Positions 2,208 through 24,277 of a DNA stretch of 26,896 nucleotides are shown piece by piece. The translations under genes were made by a program, and so were the position numbers. Position 1 is the stretch's first letter; every line of letters begins with the position of its first letter. Location of the stretch: the IMG/VR virus record IMGVR_UViG_3300042361_000157, positions 1 to 26,896 of that record; one strand, written 5' to 3'. Source of the stretch: a virus. The notes below the pieces were generated by a model. The model searched no databases. It was not told the origin of the DNA and saw only the letters and a program-made list of their open reading frames with translations.

Positions 2208-3695
2208 ATGAAAAAATGGGTATTTGGTTTACTGATAATTGTTATATCTACATTCGCTACTGAAGCGATAGGGCAAACCTATTCTCAGACTTATAAAGAT
2301 AAGTGTACTGGTGAAGTTAAGATAGCCACTACAACAATGGTAAACGGATTTGCAACAGTATCCTTTTATAATCAGGTAAGAGTATTCTCGCCAACCGAAG
2401 TAATGGCAGGCGCTGTATCTGCTTGGGTTACTGCAACTTACGCAGCTTTTAATTCAATGGCATGTCCTACGAATGTGGTAGTTCAACAAACGGTACAAAA
2501 CACAGTAGCACAGGCGGCAGCAGCGGCAGCGGCCGCAGCCGCACAAGCAGCAGCTGATGCAGCAGCAAAAGCAGCGGCAGATGCAGCAGCAAAAGCAGCA
2601 GCAGATGCGGCAGCAAAATCAGCTAGTTCATCAGCATCCGCATCAGCAGGTGCAGCAGCAAGTGGAGCGGCAAGTGCAGCAATTCCACCACCTCCACCAA
2701 CCGCATCAGCCCCTCCACCAACATCAAGTAGTAGTTCTACCCCACCACCGACTTCCTCATCAGGAAGCAGTAGTTCTGGAGGTTCTGGGAGCAGTTCTGG
2801 TAGTGGTTCATCTTCATCTACGGAAACAAAGACTGAAACCAAAACGGAGACTAAAACTGAAACGAAATCTGAATCAAAATCGGAGAGTAAATCGGAAAGT
2901 AAGACTGAAGAAAAGAAAGAAGAAACTAAATCGGAAAGCAAAGAAGAAAAGAAAGAGGAAAAGAAAGAAGAATCTAAAGAAGAAAAGAAAGAGGAGAAGA
3001 AGGAAGAAAAGAAAAAAGAGGAAAAAAAGAAAACAATAGCTAATCCAATGATGTTAGCTAGTGATTTAGCTGGTACGGAAGATGCGGAAGGTAGATATGC
3101 AGTAATGATGAGTTTTGGTGTATCTAAATCATCTTTAATGGGAGATAAATCATATTCAGCTACCGCACTTATTTGGAGTACGTTAAATCAATTTGCTCTA
3201 AGTGGTGGTATTACTAAAATGGACTTTGAAGATGGTAAACTAAACGCAATACATTCATACGGAACTACATTTGCATATCTTAAAGGAACTATAATGAACC
3301 TAAACGGATATACTTGGATTAAACCCCATCCTAAGTACGGAACATTTGGATATAATGTGGGTGTGATTACGTTAATGATGCAAAACGCAGTTAAAGGTGG
3401 ATATGATGTTTCCTTGAGTGCATCAGCAGTTGGATTTTGGATGAAACCATATTCTTATAGTAGAAAGGTTACCCTAACTCCGCAAGTATTCTTAATGCAA
3501 TCCCCATTAGCTTGGAATACTGTAACTGGTGGAAGTATTGTGAATAGAACGCCGGGAGCAATATTAGGATTGGGATATGATTATAAATTAAGTAAAAGAT
3601 TTGGATTTTCAGCAGCTTATAGAGCAGCAATATCATTTGTACCTGAATTTTCTTTATTAAATAATATCCAAATCGGGTCAAAAATGATATTTTAG
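2208..3695 (+). CDS. Secreted protein with extreme low-complexity linker and C-terminal barrel-like domain
   Basis: The 495-residue product has a signal peptide (cleavage near residues 22-23, A-I-G-Q). A small domain with two Cys (33 and 86) follows. Next is a linker with three sharply different zones: Ala-rich (about residues 101-158, including three AAADAAAK units), Pro/Ser/Gly-rich (about 159-204), and Lys/Glu/Thr/Ser-rich (205-275, with TETK and SESK units passing into KKEE runs). The last 200 residues (about 295-495) look like an outer-membrane barrel: alternating strands, many aromatics, and a final GSKMIF. The design suggests a barrel carrying a long periplasm- or surface-spanning arm, perhaps binding peptidoglycan or spanning layers. 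That role is inferred. The product begins one base after the previous gene. Confidence 0.75.
   Translation: MKKWVFGLLIIVISTFATEAIGQTYSQTYKDKCTGEVKIATTTMVNGFATVSFYNQVRVFSPTEVMAGAVSAWVTATYAAFNSMACPTNVVVQQTVQNTVAQAAAAAAAAAAQAAADAAAKAAADAAAKAAADAAAKSASSSASASAGAAASGAASAAIPPPPPTASAPPPTSSSSSTPPPTSSSGSSSSGGSGSSSGSGSSSSTETKTETKTETKTETKSESKSESKSESKTEEKKEETKSESKEEKKEEKKEESKEEKKEEKKEEKKKEEKKKTIANPMMLASDLAGTEDAEGRYAVMMSFGVSKSSLMGDKSYSATALIWSTLNQFALSGGITKMDFEDGKLNAIHSYGTTFAYLKGTIMNLNGYTWIKPHPKYGTFGYNVGVITLMMQNAVKGGYDVSLSASAVGFWMKPYSYSRKVTLTPQVFLMQSPLAWNTVTGGSIVNRTPGAILGLGYDYKLSKRFGFSAAYRAAISFVPEFSLLNNIQIGSKMIF
2547..2618 (+). repeat. Three tandem 24-bp units encoding AAADAAAK
   Basis: Three direct repeats encode residues 114-137 of the secreted linker protein. 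The preceding stretch is an uninterrupted poly-Ala run using GCA, GCG and GCC codons, much more G+C-rich than the surrounding DNA. Repeat number could vary between related phages by slippage. Confidence 0.85.
2820..2903 (+). repeat. Tandem 12-bp units encoding TETK then SESK
   Basis: Four TETK units are followed by three SESK units (residues 205-232 of the same protein). They grade into Lys/Glu runs that reach about 3032. The strand is almost purely purine (A and G) from about 2900 to 3030. Confidence 0.85.
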
Positions 3696-4381: not shown

Positions 4382-4714
4382 ATGATAAAATTAATGGGTA
4401 TTGTAACCGGAAAACCAGTTGTAAGTGAAGCGAGTAATCCTCATGAAAATCCTGAGGTTTTAGCTTTATCTAAAAAGATAGCTAAATTAACCGATAGAAA
4501 TGACCATACATCTTCTGTAATGGAATTGGCAAAATTTTTGAAAGATACAAAGGCAATTAAGAAATTAGAAGCAATAGAAACAATACACAAAATAGAAGGT
4601 TCAATGCCATCTGAAATATCTAAATATAGAAGCATTATCTTAAACGGATTAATGGATACCTTTGGAGATAAATATAGTTTAACTGATTACACTAATTTAA
4701 AAGGAGCATTTTAA
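4382..4714 (+). CDS. Small soluble phage protein, function unknown
   Basis: This 110-residue, mostly helical, charged protein starts one base after the previous stop and ends one base before the next start, so it is almost certainly a real operon member. It has no signal peptide, Cys or metal-site motif. The central part, LTDRNDHTSSVMELAKFL, suggests a compact helical fold. I do not recognise the family with confidence. It could be a virion component or an accessory factor. Confidence 0.7.
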   Translation: MIKLMGIVTGKPVVSEASNPHENPEVLALSKKIAKLTDRNDHTSSVMELAKFLKDTKAIKKLEAIETIHKIEGSMPSEISKYRSIILNGLMDTFGDKYSLTDYTNLKGAF

Positions 4715-4715
4715 A

Positions 4716-5360
4716 ATGATACGTTTAAAAGAAGCATTTATAAAAGGACAAACTTACGGAGGAACTAATTGTAAAGGTGGTTGCTTTATGGGTAAGGAAG
4801 GCTTAAAGAAGATAATTAAAATATCTAAAGAATTGCCTGATAATACATTTATGTTTAGAGATGATAACTACTCTGGATTACAACCACACTTTATTAAGAA
4901 TGGTGTAATTGCAAAAGCAAACACAATTGGTAATCCATCTTATGATTTAGAAAGAAATAAGGTAAGAAGTTTAAATATAGGCAAAGATGTAATTCTTTCT
5001 GTTAGATTATTTGAATCAACAAACGAATCAGTAACCGAAGCAAAATCAGATTATCCGGTATATCACTTTACATATTCAGCAGCTATTAACACTGCTAAAG
5101 AATATGCAGAAAAGAAAGGATATGAAGTAGATGATGAAGATTCATTTAGAAAAATAGGAATGGGTCCTAGAAAACCATCTGCTGGAAAAACTAATAGATT
5201 CTCAATTGAATTAACTAAAGCAGGTAAACCACAAAAGAAGTTATTACATATTCAAGTTTATAATATGGGAACTTTCAAAAGAGATAATACGGATGGTTCT
5301 TATATTAAGAGTTTACATGGTGGACAAGATAGATATGAACTAAACGCTTATATTAACTAA
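4716..5360 (+). CDS. Phage protein with a C-terminal conserved domain, function unknown
   Basis: The 214-residue protein opens with MIRLKEAFIKG, a start similar to the next gene (MKLKECI). The first 100 residues contain a Cys pair (C19 and C23, C-K-G-G-C) in a Gly-rich loop. The second half starts with YPVYHFTYSAAINTAKEYAEKK, includes MGPRKPSAGKTNRFSIEL and ends in YELNAYIN. I recall this second part as a domain seen repeatedly in large phage genomes without a known function; that is recollection, not a search. One base separates it from each neighbour. The two halves may be a fusion of separate domains. Confidence 0.7.
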   Translation: MIRLKEAFIKGQTYGGTNCKGGCFMGKEGLKKIIKISKELPDNTFMFRDDNYSGLQPHFIKNGVIAKANTIGNPSYDLERNKVRSLNIGKDVILSVRLFESTNESVTEAKSDYPVYHFTYSAAINTAKEYAEKKGYEVDDEDSFRKIGMGPRKPSAGKTNRFSIELTKAGKPQKKLLHIQVYNMGTFKRDNTDGSYIKSLHGGQDRYELNAYIN

Positions 5361-5361
5361 A

Positions 5362-6177
5362 ATGAAACTTAAAGAGTGTATTATCGTATCTAAAGAAATA
5401 AACGATAAATTCATACTTGCAAAAAACAGAGATAGGGCATATAACCCATCTTTAGAAATTGTACACACTATTATTGATGGTGTGGAAGTTGCATATCTGC
5501 ACGATTTAGTAACTGATTGGAGTGAGGGTTTAAACGAAAACGGAATAGGTGTTGTAAACTCAGCACTATTAGTTGGGCATGATGAAGCTGAGCATAAGAT
5601 TGTAAAGAAGGGTGGAAAGCCTGGACCTGATGGTGATAAGATGAGAAACATCATTAAACAACCTACTCTAATGGATGCAGTACGAGCTGCACTTAAATAT
5701 AAGGGAAAGAGTGGATTATCTTTAAAAGGCCATACATTTGTATCATCCCCAAAACATATGGTTAGTATTGAAACTACATCAAAGCATAAGCCTGATGTTA
5801 AACTTCAAAATTCCGAATCACCTGTTGTTCGTACAAATCACGGACATATGTTCACCGATGCCGGATATACGCATGGTGAAAAATATCTAAGTTCAAAGAT
5901 GAGAAAGATATCAGCAGAGAAATCGGTTGATAAAGTAGAAGATTGGAAAGGAATAGCACAAGCTATGAGAAAAGAATACTTTCCAACCAAACCTCAATTG
6001 AATATGAAAAGGGATACAAAGGAGATGTCTACATCATCTCAAACTGTAATGAATCTAACTGATAAGATATTACAAATAACTTACTTTAAAGGTAAGGTAG
6101 ATGAATTCAAAGGTATTAATAGACAATTGCCTGAAGGATATCAACCAAAGATTACAATCGAAGTAATCCCAGTTTAA
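5362..6177 (+). CDS. Ntn-hydrolase, acid-ceramidase / C45 / C59-like amidase or acyltransferase
   Basis: In this 271-residue protein, the N-terminal strand carries Cys6 (ECIIVSKE). It is followed by AKNRDRAYNP with N22-R23-D24, then TDWSEGLNENGIGVVNSAL (N58, E59, G61), VRTNHGHMF (N159-H160), and near the end TSSQTVMNLTDKILQITYF. The order matches N-terminal-nucleophile hydrolases such as acid ceramidase, choloylglycine hydrolase and penicillin acylases. In those families a Cys exposed by removing a short leader attacks a linear amide, and Arg, Asp and Asn complete the site. Only five residues would be removed here. The substrate cannot be told from sequence. Its place before the spike genes suggests a virion or lysis role (host lipid, lipopeptide or quorum-signal amide), or self-processing of a structural partner. 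The fold call is fairly firm; the activity is not. Confidence 0.72.
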   Translation: MKLKECIIVSKEINDKFILAKNRDRAYNPSLEIVHTIIDGVEVAYLHDLVTDWSEGLNENGIGVVNSALLVGHDEAEHKIVKKGGKPGPDGDKMRNIIKQPTLMDAVRAALKYKGKSGLSLKGHTFVSSPKHMVSIETTSKHKPDVKLQNSESPVVRTNHGHMFTDAGYTHGEKYLSSKMRKISAEKSVDKVEDWKGIAQAMRKEYFPTKPQLNMKRDTKEMSTSSQTVMNLTDKILQITYFKGKVDEFKGINRQLPEGYQPKITIEVIPV

Positions 6178-6233: not shown

Positions 6234-6626
6234 ATGTCAAATGATTTCGAATTATTTCCAGGTAAATCCTTAAATGGGTTATTTCAGGATATATACAACA
6301 ACCAAGTACATAAGAAAGCAAGAATCAGCGATTTAATCAATGATTTAAAAAATATGGTTAGAAGTCCAAGCGATATGGGTAACTTAGGACCATTAATTAA
6401 TTCACTAATAGATAGTTCAATTAAAAACGATGACCATTTGGTTAAGTTGGCAGCTATTGCAACCAAGATTGTGGCAGCTGATAAAAAGACTGAAGGACAG
6501 GAAGGATTCTTATCACCATTTGAGAAAGAGCAATTACTTAGAGATTTGGAAACTACTAAAGAAGAAGTTGAAAGAGTGGATGATTTGGAATTTGAAATGG
6601 AGGAGTTAAAAAAGAAAATGAAGTAA
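6234..6626 (+). CDS. Small helical coiled-coil phage protein
   Basis: The 130-residue protein is almost all helical and has no signal peptide or Cys. The start is MSNDFELFPGKSLNGLFQDI. The last third (about residues 95-130) is a dense Glu/Lys/Leu heptad region that should form a coiled coil. It is the first gene after a promoter-like motif and ends one base before the spike gene. An assembly chaperone or minor virion component of the spike complex is plausible from position, but I do not recognise the family. Confidence 0.72.
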   Translation: MSNDFELFPGKSLNGLFQDIYNNQVHKKARISDLINDLKNMVRSPSDMGNLGPLINSLIDSSIKNDDHLVKLAAIATKIVAADKKTEGQEGFLSPFEKEQLLRDLETTKEEVERVDDLEFEMEELKKKMK

Positions 6627-22926: not shown

Positions 22927-23553
22927 ATGGCATATTTAGATAATTCGGAAATTATAGTAGAAGCAATAATTACTAAAAAAGGTAGACAGAAATTAGCATC
23001 GGGGCAATCTTTGGATATTACAAAGTTTTGTTTAGGTGATGATGAGATTGATTACACTCTTTACAATTCAGCAAATAAAAAAGGACCAAATTATTATAAT
23101 TCAGCTATTTTAGCACTTCCTATTACTGAAGCATGTGCTGATGAAACTCAAGCAATAAGATATAAATTAGTTACACTTCCAAAAGGAACTAATCAAATAC
23201 CAATTGTAACATTACAACCCCTATCAGTTAATACAACTCAAAATGAAGGTGGTGTTTTATTAGAACCATCAACTAGTCCCAACGGAAATCAAAATTTAGG
23301 ATATACGATGCTACTAGCAGACCAAAGAGCAGGTACATTGATAGTTAGTAGAGCAGCGAATGGTACTGGAACTACATTATTGTTGGATGATGCAATTTCA
23401 ACAACTGCACAAGTTGTTACTGGTTTAGAATTTAGATTTGTTCCAAATCCAAACTTATTAATCGATGTAGCTACAACAATTACTGTTTATGGTAATGAAA
23501 CTGGTGGTTCTCGAACTATTCCTGTAATCGTAACATACAAACCAACCTTATAA
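22927..23553 (+). CDS. Virion structural protein, 208 residues, paralog A
   Basis: The first of two adjacent copies of the same length. It starts MAYLDNSEIIVEAIITKKGR and continues with ASGQSLDITKFCLGDDEIDY; I recall similar openings in structural proteins of large marine and Bacteroidota phages. The body is rich in Thr, Val and Gly strands (ATTITVYGNETGG) and has no signal peptide. Counting by eye, about 154 of 208 positions match the next gene without gaps. It has its own promoter-like motif and is followed by a 97-base gap without a strong terminator. Cys34 and Cys70 are Ala and Ser in the sister copy. Role inferred as tail or neck decoration; not proven. Confidence 0.75.
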   Translation: MAYLDNSEIIVEAIITKKGRQKLASGQSLDITKFCLGDDEIDYTLYNSANKKGPNYYNSAILALPITEACADETQAIRYKLVTLPKGTNQIPIVTLQPLSVNTTQNEGGVLLEPSTSPNGNQNLGYTMLLADQRAGTLIVSRAANGTGTTLLLDDAISTTAQVVTGLEFRFVPNPNLLIDVATTITVYGNETGGSRTIPVIVTYKPTL

Positions 23554-23650: not shown

Positions 23651-24277
23651 ATGGCATATTTAGATAACACAGAAATTACGGTAGATGCAATTCTTACTAA
23701 AAAAGGTAGACAAAAATTGGCATCGGGGCAATCTTTGAACATTACAAAGTTTGCTTTGGGTGATGATGAAATAGACTACACGCTTTATGAACCAGCACAT
23801 CCAAAAGGTTCTGCATACTATGATTCGGCAATCAGAGCCATTCCTATTACGGAAGCTAGTCCTGATGAAACTCAAGTATTGAGATATAAATTAGTTACCC
23901 TTCCAAAAGGAACAACTCAAATCCCAACTGTAAGATTGGGCATACCTCAAGTTAGTGTTAATCAATTTGAAGGTGGTGTGGGATTATCTCCAACAACATC
24001 TCCTGCTGGAAACCAAAATGCTGGATATACAATGGTATTAGCAGACCAAAGAGCAGGTACAATTACTGTTACTAGAGGAGCAACTGGTACTGGTAATACA
24101 TTATTCTTAGGTGATGAAATTACAACAACTGCGCAAGTTGTTACTGGTTTAGAATTTAGATTCACTCCAAATCCAAACTTAACACTTGATGTATCTACTA
24201 CAATAACTGTATTTGGAAATGAAACTGGAGGTTCTCAAACTATTCCTGTAATCGTAACATACAAAGCAACCGCATAA
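23651..24277 (+). CDS. Virion structural protein, 208 residues, paralog B
   Basis: The second copy of the pair. It begins MAYLDNTEITVDAILTKKGR and shares the blocks ITKF-LGDDEIDYTLY, LVTLPKGT-QIP, ADQRAGT and AQVVTGLEFRF with paralog A. The least similar region is about residues 91-120, with TLQPLSVNTTQ in A against RLGIPQVSVNQ in B. That stretch may be an exposed loop that sets the two apart. Twenty bases separate it from the 404-residue gene, with no promoter-like motif, so those two are probably co-transcribed. Separate promoter-like motifs for A and B suggest independent levels of expression. Confidence 0.75.
   Translation: MAYLDNTEITVDAILTKKGRQKLASGQSLNITKFALGDDEIDYTLYEPAHPKGSAYYDSAIRAIPITEASPDETQVLRYKLVTLPKGTTQIPTVRLGIPQVSVNQFEGGVGLSPTTSPAGNQNAGYTMVLADQRAGTITVTRGATGTGNTLFLGDEITTTAQVVTGLEFRFTPNPNLTLDVSTTITVFGNETGGSQTIPVIVTYKATA

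Follow-up and report, generated by a model that had tools for sequence, protein, structure and literature searches.

In phage T4, the prohead protease gp21 cuts head proteins after the motif L/I-X-E, and this maturation proteolysis happens in the prohead (PMC9026906). The packaged T4 proteins treated in that source lose short N-terminal leaders ending in this motif, of 7 residues in the enzyme Alt and of 10–19 residues in the internal proteins, with unrelated cargo standing behind similar leaders, and the propeptide of gp23 comprises 65 residues. In T4 IPIII, Asp in place of the motif's Glu prevents processing while targeting is unaffected (PMC9026906). Phages phiKZ and SPN3US possess gp21-type proteases (gp175 and gp245, respectively) with many substrates, both head proteins and ejected ones, which they cut after x-x-Glu, although the motif there is S/A-X-E and the propeptides are 20–254 residues long (PMC9026906, PMC10052503). 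Activation of an enzyme is not among the reports in the passages of these sources that treat the two phages, and none of the T4 cargo described in PMC9026906 has a catalytic nucleophile as the residue freed by the cut. In Ntn hydrolases the nucleophilic residue is N-terminal, and catalysis relies on its free amine (PMC5915598). Ntn amidases are thus known, as is cargo that gp21 cuts, Alt among it; a literature search of one library found no report that brings Ntn hydrolases, phages and prohead proteases together, nor one of a head protease freeing a catalytic N-terminal residue.

The window analysed here is a virus record of 26,896 bases, and we consider it probable that one of its genes encodes a head-cargo zymogen, whose N-terminal Cys nucleophile would be bared by prohead-protease cleavage as the head matures and which would be carried in the virion and ejected. 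The first-pass annotation had read Cys6, NRD at residues 22–24, GLNENGIG at 56–63 and TNH at 158–160 from the 271-aa open reading frame, and all four lie exactly where it placed them; the (L/I)-x-Glu prohead-protease site directly before Cys6 had been overlooked. The features are compiled in Table 1. Elsewhere in the window, two adjacent and strongly similar 208-aa proteins in the tail region (22927–23553 and 23651–24277; MAYLDN[ST]EI...KKGRQKLASGQSL) represent a tandem gene duplication, and a 495-aa protein (2208–3695) combines a signal-like N-terminus with a long low-complexity stretch, rich in Ala/Ser/Pro and then in Glu/Lys, that precedes a C-terminal domain.

Table 1. Features of the Ntn hydrolase gene and its neighbours (window coordinates; the arrow marks a putative cleavage site).
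Feature	Position	Strand	Basis
Possible third leader-bearing cargo gene, 110 aa, starting MIKLMGIVTGKPVVSE↓A	4382..4714	+	Relative at L219 reads MIKLMGIVSE↓G
Adjacent gene, 214 aa, modular putative head-cargo protein, start MIRLKE↓A, modules joined at NESVTE↓A	4716..5360	+	Comparison with relatives
MIRLKE leader of adjacent gene	4716..4733	+	Sequence
VTE internal site of adjacent gene, residues 106–108, before A109, at the module junction	5031..5039	+	Module comparison
Cys Ntn hydrolase coding sequence, 271 aa	5362..6177	+	ORF translation, fold, family alignment
Leader MKLKE (codons 1–5) with the prohead-protease motif (L/I)xE at its end	5362..5376	+	All leader-bearing relatives have the motif directly ahead of Cys
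Cys6 codon, predicted N-terminal nucleophile after cleavage	5377..5379	+	Kept in 128/128 distinct relatives; structural alignments start at model residue 6
N22-R23-D24, Asp at Cys+18	5425..5433	+	Invariant in family alignment
GLNENGIG, residues 56–63, within the invariant TDWSEGxNE stretch	5527..5550	+	G56, N58, E59, G61 and G63 invariant
T158-N159-H160, predicted oxyanion-hole region	5833..5841	+	RTNHG invariant
R217 at Cys+211, candidate active-site Arg	6010..6012	+	Invariant; candidate role by analogy with the spacing in IAT
Conserved downstream neighbour, 130-aa DFELFPGK gene, ahead of baseplate genes	6234..6626	+	Same order in L163, L167, L168, L203, L219 and G002

An AlphaFold2 model built on the family alignment (pLDDT 84.6, pTM 0.87) adopts the alpha-beta-beta-alpha Ntn amidase fold that the first-pass annotation had proposed, and the best structural matches (Foldseek, VIA-align) are all Ntn hydrolases, with Z scores of 15.6–19.5 over about 200–230 residues and no other fold among the top neighbours. 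The scores are 19.5 for the uncharacterised CV2077, 19.1 for N-acylethanolamine acid amidase (NAAA; 6dy1), 18.5 for isopenicillin N acyltransferase (IAT; 2x1c), 18.2 for acid ceramidase (5u7z) and about 16 for bile salt hydrolases and penicillin V acylases (e.g. 2iwm). In most of these superpositions, including those on NAAA, acid ceramidase, IAT, bile salt hydrolases and penicillin V acylases, model residue 6 is the first to be aligned and faces the residue with which the mature enzyme chain begins; in human acid ceramidase, for example, this is residue 143, the nucleophile (PMC5915598). Searches of the window protein against Pfam, PHROGs, NCBIfam and PDB sequences gave nothing useful, and its matches to DUF6961 and Retrotrans_gag were sub-threshold and were discarded. 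The relatives from phages MA9V-1 and MA9V-2 weakly match the Pfam AAT family (PF03417) over nearly all of the profile, with an E-value of 1.2e-4 and 22.3 bits against a cut-off of 23.2 bits; 7 of 28 other family members match it weakly (best E 0.0033), and the window protein does not match. Taken together, the structural alignments from residue 6 and the AAT match indicate that the protein is, judged from the model, a Cys-type Ntn hydrolase with Cys6 as its predicted nucleophile. The fold alone does not reveal the substrate.

With IAT and the AAT/MEROPS C45 family the window protein shares the Ntn fold, an N-terminal Cys nucleophile in the predicted mature chain, Asp at Cys+18 and a conserved Arg about 210 residues further on, but identity is only 10–14% and the phage enzyme has a short leader ending in (L/I)xE rather than a long alpha propeptide. 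NAAA and acid ceramidase have the same fold in their beta subunits, and their alignments begin at the catalytic Cys; unlike the phage protein they are lysosomal and self-cleaving with a separate alpha subunit, and the pattern of residues after the Cys differs. By spacing, the positions of acid ceramidase R159 (Cys+16) and D162 (Cys+19) are occupied by N22 and R25 in the window protein, which has its Asp at Cys+18, although loop shifts could account for this. The NRD motif also raised TANGO2/NRDE as a candidate family, which was rejected, human Tango2 being a weaker match (8sv7, E 4.2e-4) and one family member a sub-threshold one.

Scans of viral contigs returned 178 relatives in one case and up to 440 in others. 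Among isolates the gene was seen only in phages MA9V-1 and MA9V-2 of Chryseobacterium, a Bacteroidota genus, where it is annotated as hypothetical; a viral scan with the MA9V-1 protein as the lone query gave no matches, and no cellular relative turned up when 84,980 genomes of bacteria and archaea were scanned twice, with a short exact pattern that distant cellular relatives could escape. In an alignment of 28 representatives, spanning identities down to about 50%, the invariant residues are C6, N22-R23-D24-R25, T51-D52-W53-S54-E55-G56, N58-E59, N66, R157-T158-N159-H160-G161, N214-M215 and R217. The MA9V-1 and MA9V-2 proteins (WIC41446.1 and WNN12488.1, with the conserved Cys at position 13), which are 43–44% identical to the window protein, keep C6, NRD, E55-G56-x-N58-E59 and R157-T158-N159-H160-G161, and conservation over this range argues that the motif residues are not there by chance. 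The proposed nucleophile is retained in all 128 distinct relatives; no homologue with an intact N-terminus lacks it, the sole apparent exception (L289) being cut off at a contig end and hence uninformative for this count.

The N-termini of these 128 proteins (288 loci) are of two types: seven begin Met-Cys, and the others carry a leader, ending in [LI]xE in 118 and in VxE in three. The count of 118 is made up of 112 and 4 scripted assignments together with L324 and L329, which were added after correction of the regular expression. The motif [LIV]xE therefore abuts the Cys in 121 of the 121 distinct leader-bearing relatives, and in every relative the Cys is able to become the N-terminal residue, lying either at position 2 or directly behind a leader. 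Leader length, counted from the nearest ATG, is 4–12 residues, and the leaders are clade-specific (MKLKE, MINE, MAKLLNE, MDTKLNE, MDFLDKQNLVE and MTSANNNEFLNE), with only the Glu and the Leu/Ile/Val constant. The P1 Glu undergoes no replacement on the tree although its codon flips between GAA and GAG about eight times; an apparent change in L330 was a parsing artefact of an upstream Cys, the true leader being MINE. Among the leader-bearing rows of the tree P2 is variable, with 18 changes over ten residues, and P3 is Leu, Ile or Val throughout its changes. Over whole genomes, N-termini are weakly or not at all enriched in (L/I)xE (p 0.01 in G003, 0.12 in G002 and 0.77 in MA9V-1) because the motif is short. 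Since it is too short to carry weight by itself, what counts is that it always stands directly before the Cys, together with the longer leader of the neighbouring genes.

In a 49-row maximum-likelihood tree, the distribution of Met-Cys and leader-bearing forms needs four changes, of which at least three are forced by well-supported branches. Some of the Met-Cys members (L163, L165, L166, L167, L168, L199 and L215) share their gene order with leader-bearing ones. A leader-bearing gene occurs within 4 kb of 13 of the 41 LxE members and of none of the seven Met-Cys members, but the difference is not significant (p 0.17), 28 of the 41 leader-bearing members having none either, and the idea that Met-Cys phages lack leader-bearing neighbours was dropped.

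In relatives, the slot upstream of the Ntn gene holds proteins starting MIKLKDILNE↓ or MISLKKILSE↓, followed by exchangeable modules whose junctions each read ES[IV]xE↓ (e.g. L088:1770–2654, L105:1761–2912 and L094:1094–1936). From its sequence, the modular protein upstream may be a polyprotein of head cargo that the prohead protease cuts into its parts; the structure prediction for the adjacent window gene was poor (pLDDT 60). The third neighbouring gene may also bear a leader, as judged by its relative at L219. In the whole of the DNA retrieved, 72 of 3426 start Mets open a leader of the form M[IV][KRST]LxxLLxE, as against 8 of 15,569 Mets at internal positions, an odds ratio of 42. It precedes at least 17 clusters of proteins without mutual similarity, or 32 if the comparison is confined to the 50 residues that follow the leader, and swapping its final Glu for another residue leaves almost nothing, bar one Gly family. 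As the set of open reading frames is mechanical and redundant across relatives, the p-value for the leader overstates the evidence, and the cluster count is the safer figure. Leader-tagged proteins are seen in G003 (L244–L257), G002 (L269–L283), L198 and many other loci, and one of them is HAD-phosphatase-like (L198, MIKLTHLLKE↓SQQYQIYCDMDGVLVDF). On these patterns M[IV][KRST]LxxLLxE is a candidate capsid-targeting sequence of these phages. The MA9V-1 Ntn leader reads EFLNE↓C, and cargo-like proteins of the same phage use FINE↓A and YINE↓A.

A protease of the appropriate type is present in most of the long relatives. Of 14 such records, 13 have a gene that scores above cut-off for Peptidase_S77, the family of T4 gp21, among them the close relatives G011 and G012; the gene is absent from the window, a 26.9-kb fragment. 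In MA9V-1 the S77 protease (L082, 126501–130544) opens a 1347-aa protein, and in other relatives it is a stand-alone protein of 200 aa. In G003 the head maturation protease (phrog_207) is followed by three genes, the Ntn hydrolase, two further genes and the major head protein (phrog_138). Seven of the 11 genes in this cluster, counting the Ntn gene, carry an (L/I)xE leader, compared with 18 of 301 elsewhere in the genome (p 2e-6), and in the corresponding G002 cluster three of nine do (p 0.015). In seven relatives a conserved LLDE↓A lies at residue 61 of the major head protein, near the cut position of T4 gp23. The resemblance to T4 includes short leaders ending L/I-X-E, unrelated cargo behind similar leaders and, in Alt, a packaged enzyme with a short propeptide; unlike these, the window leader is only 5 residues long, below both the capsid-targeting sequences of T4 and the propeptide of Alt.

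In the mechanism that we propose, the Ntn amidase would be made as an inactive precursor, in which the MKLKE leader of the window's lineage masks Cys6, and would enter the prohead core with other leader-bearing cargo. The T4 gp21-type Peptidase_S77 would then cut after (L/I)-x-Glu in the assembling head, at the E5-C6 bond, making Cys6 N-terminal. As Cys6 lacks a free amine under the leader and would gain one by this cut, the leader-bearing form should be inactive until the prohead protease acts. The enzyme would be switched on as the head matures, ride in the virion and be ejected in active form with the DNA into the next host cell, cutting an amide bond there. That the cut takes place and activates the enzyme, and that the product is packaged and ejected, we infer. 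In the Met-Cys forms, host methionine aminopeptidase would free the N-terminal Cys at once, and because these forms occupy the same gene order without a leader, packaging is presumably not universal. The literature search found no virion mass spectrometry or N-terminal sequencing of the Ntn protein; the single isolate study gives a gel without band assignments (PMC10537231). Processing of another phage protein by this enzyme had been suggested; processing does appear relevant, but in the reverse direction, since it is the enzyme that appears to be processed, by the phage's head protease.

The main rival to activation by the prohead protease is that the enzyme removes its own leader, as acid ceramidase, IAT and penicillin V acylase do, in which case the prohead protease would be uninvolved and (L/I)xE would just position the scissile bond. 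Autocleavage ahead of the nucleophile is the superfamily rule (PMC5915598), Ntn propeptides, short ones included, are often self-removed, and short-propeptide penicillin V acylase precursors are found among the structural neighbours (2iwm). However, a P1 that is always Glu, a P3 limited to Leu, Ile or Val and a free P2 follow the prohead-protease rule, unrelated non-Ntn neighbours bear the same motif at the ends of their leaders, and the Met-Cys members need no propeptide, so that we regard self-removal of the leader as unlikely.

Somewhat less likely again is that the enzyme is not cargo and acts in the cytoplasm late in infection, its leader being cut merely through the presence of the protease in the same cell. 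The location of T4-type head proteolysis in the prohead, as given in PMC9026906, does not favour this, nor does the position of the G003 gene within the head cluster or the longer leaders of the same type (10 residues) on neighbouring genes, although the leader of the enzyme is short and Met-Cys members lie in the same gene order beside baseplate genes. Because the leader and the cargo-like neighbours point to the head interior, a role tied to the adjacent envelope-protein block, which the first-pass annotation had entertained, is also unlikely. Its favoured substrate fares worst: an enzyme that attacks ceramides or other sphingolipids of the Bacteroidota envelope would agree with the match to acid ceramidase and with the Chryseobacterium hosts of the isolate relatives, but we find it highly improbable, as NAAA, IAT and CV2077, with other substrates, match equally well or better, a signal peptide is absent, the acid ceramidase Arg and Asp are replaced (subject to the loop shifts mentioned above), and the leader and neighbourhood indicate the head interior.

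If activation by the prohead protease is correct, proteolysis during capsid maturation would create a catalytic residue, beyond reshaping the head, and the enzyme would be inactive until enclosed, its activation being tied to assembly of the virus. It would also be an unusually clean case of a protease exposing an Ntn nucleophile in trans, with natural Met-Cys variants that dispense with the cut. More tentatively, and with the balance slightly against so broad a reading, this may be one instance of a virion-borne zymogen system, in which large T4-like phages of Bacteroidota load an Ntn amidase into the prohead, the maturation protease activates it, and it is injected along with the DNA, as one of many exchangeable leader-tagged cargoes, so as to disarm the host or reprogramme it. 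The leader motif would provide a sequence handle with which to predict head-carried, injected proteins of large Bacteroidota phages, few of which have an assigned function.
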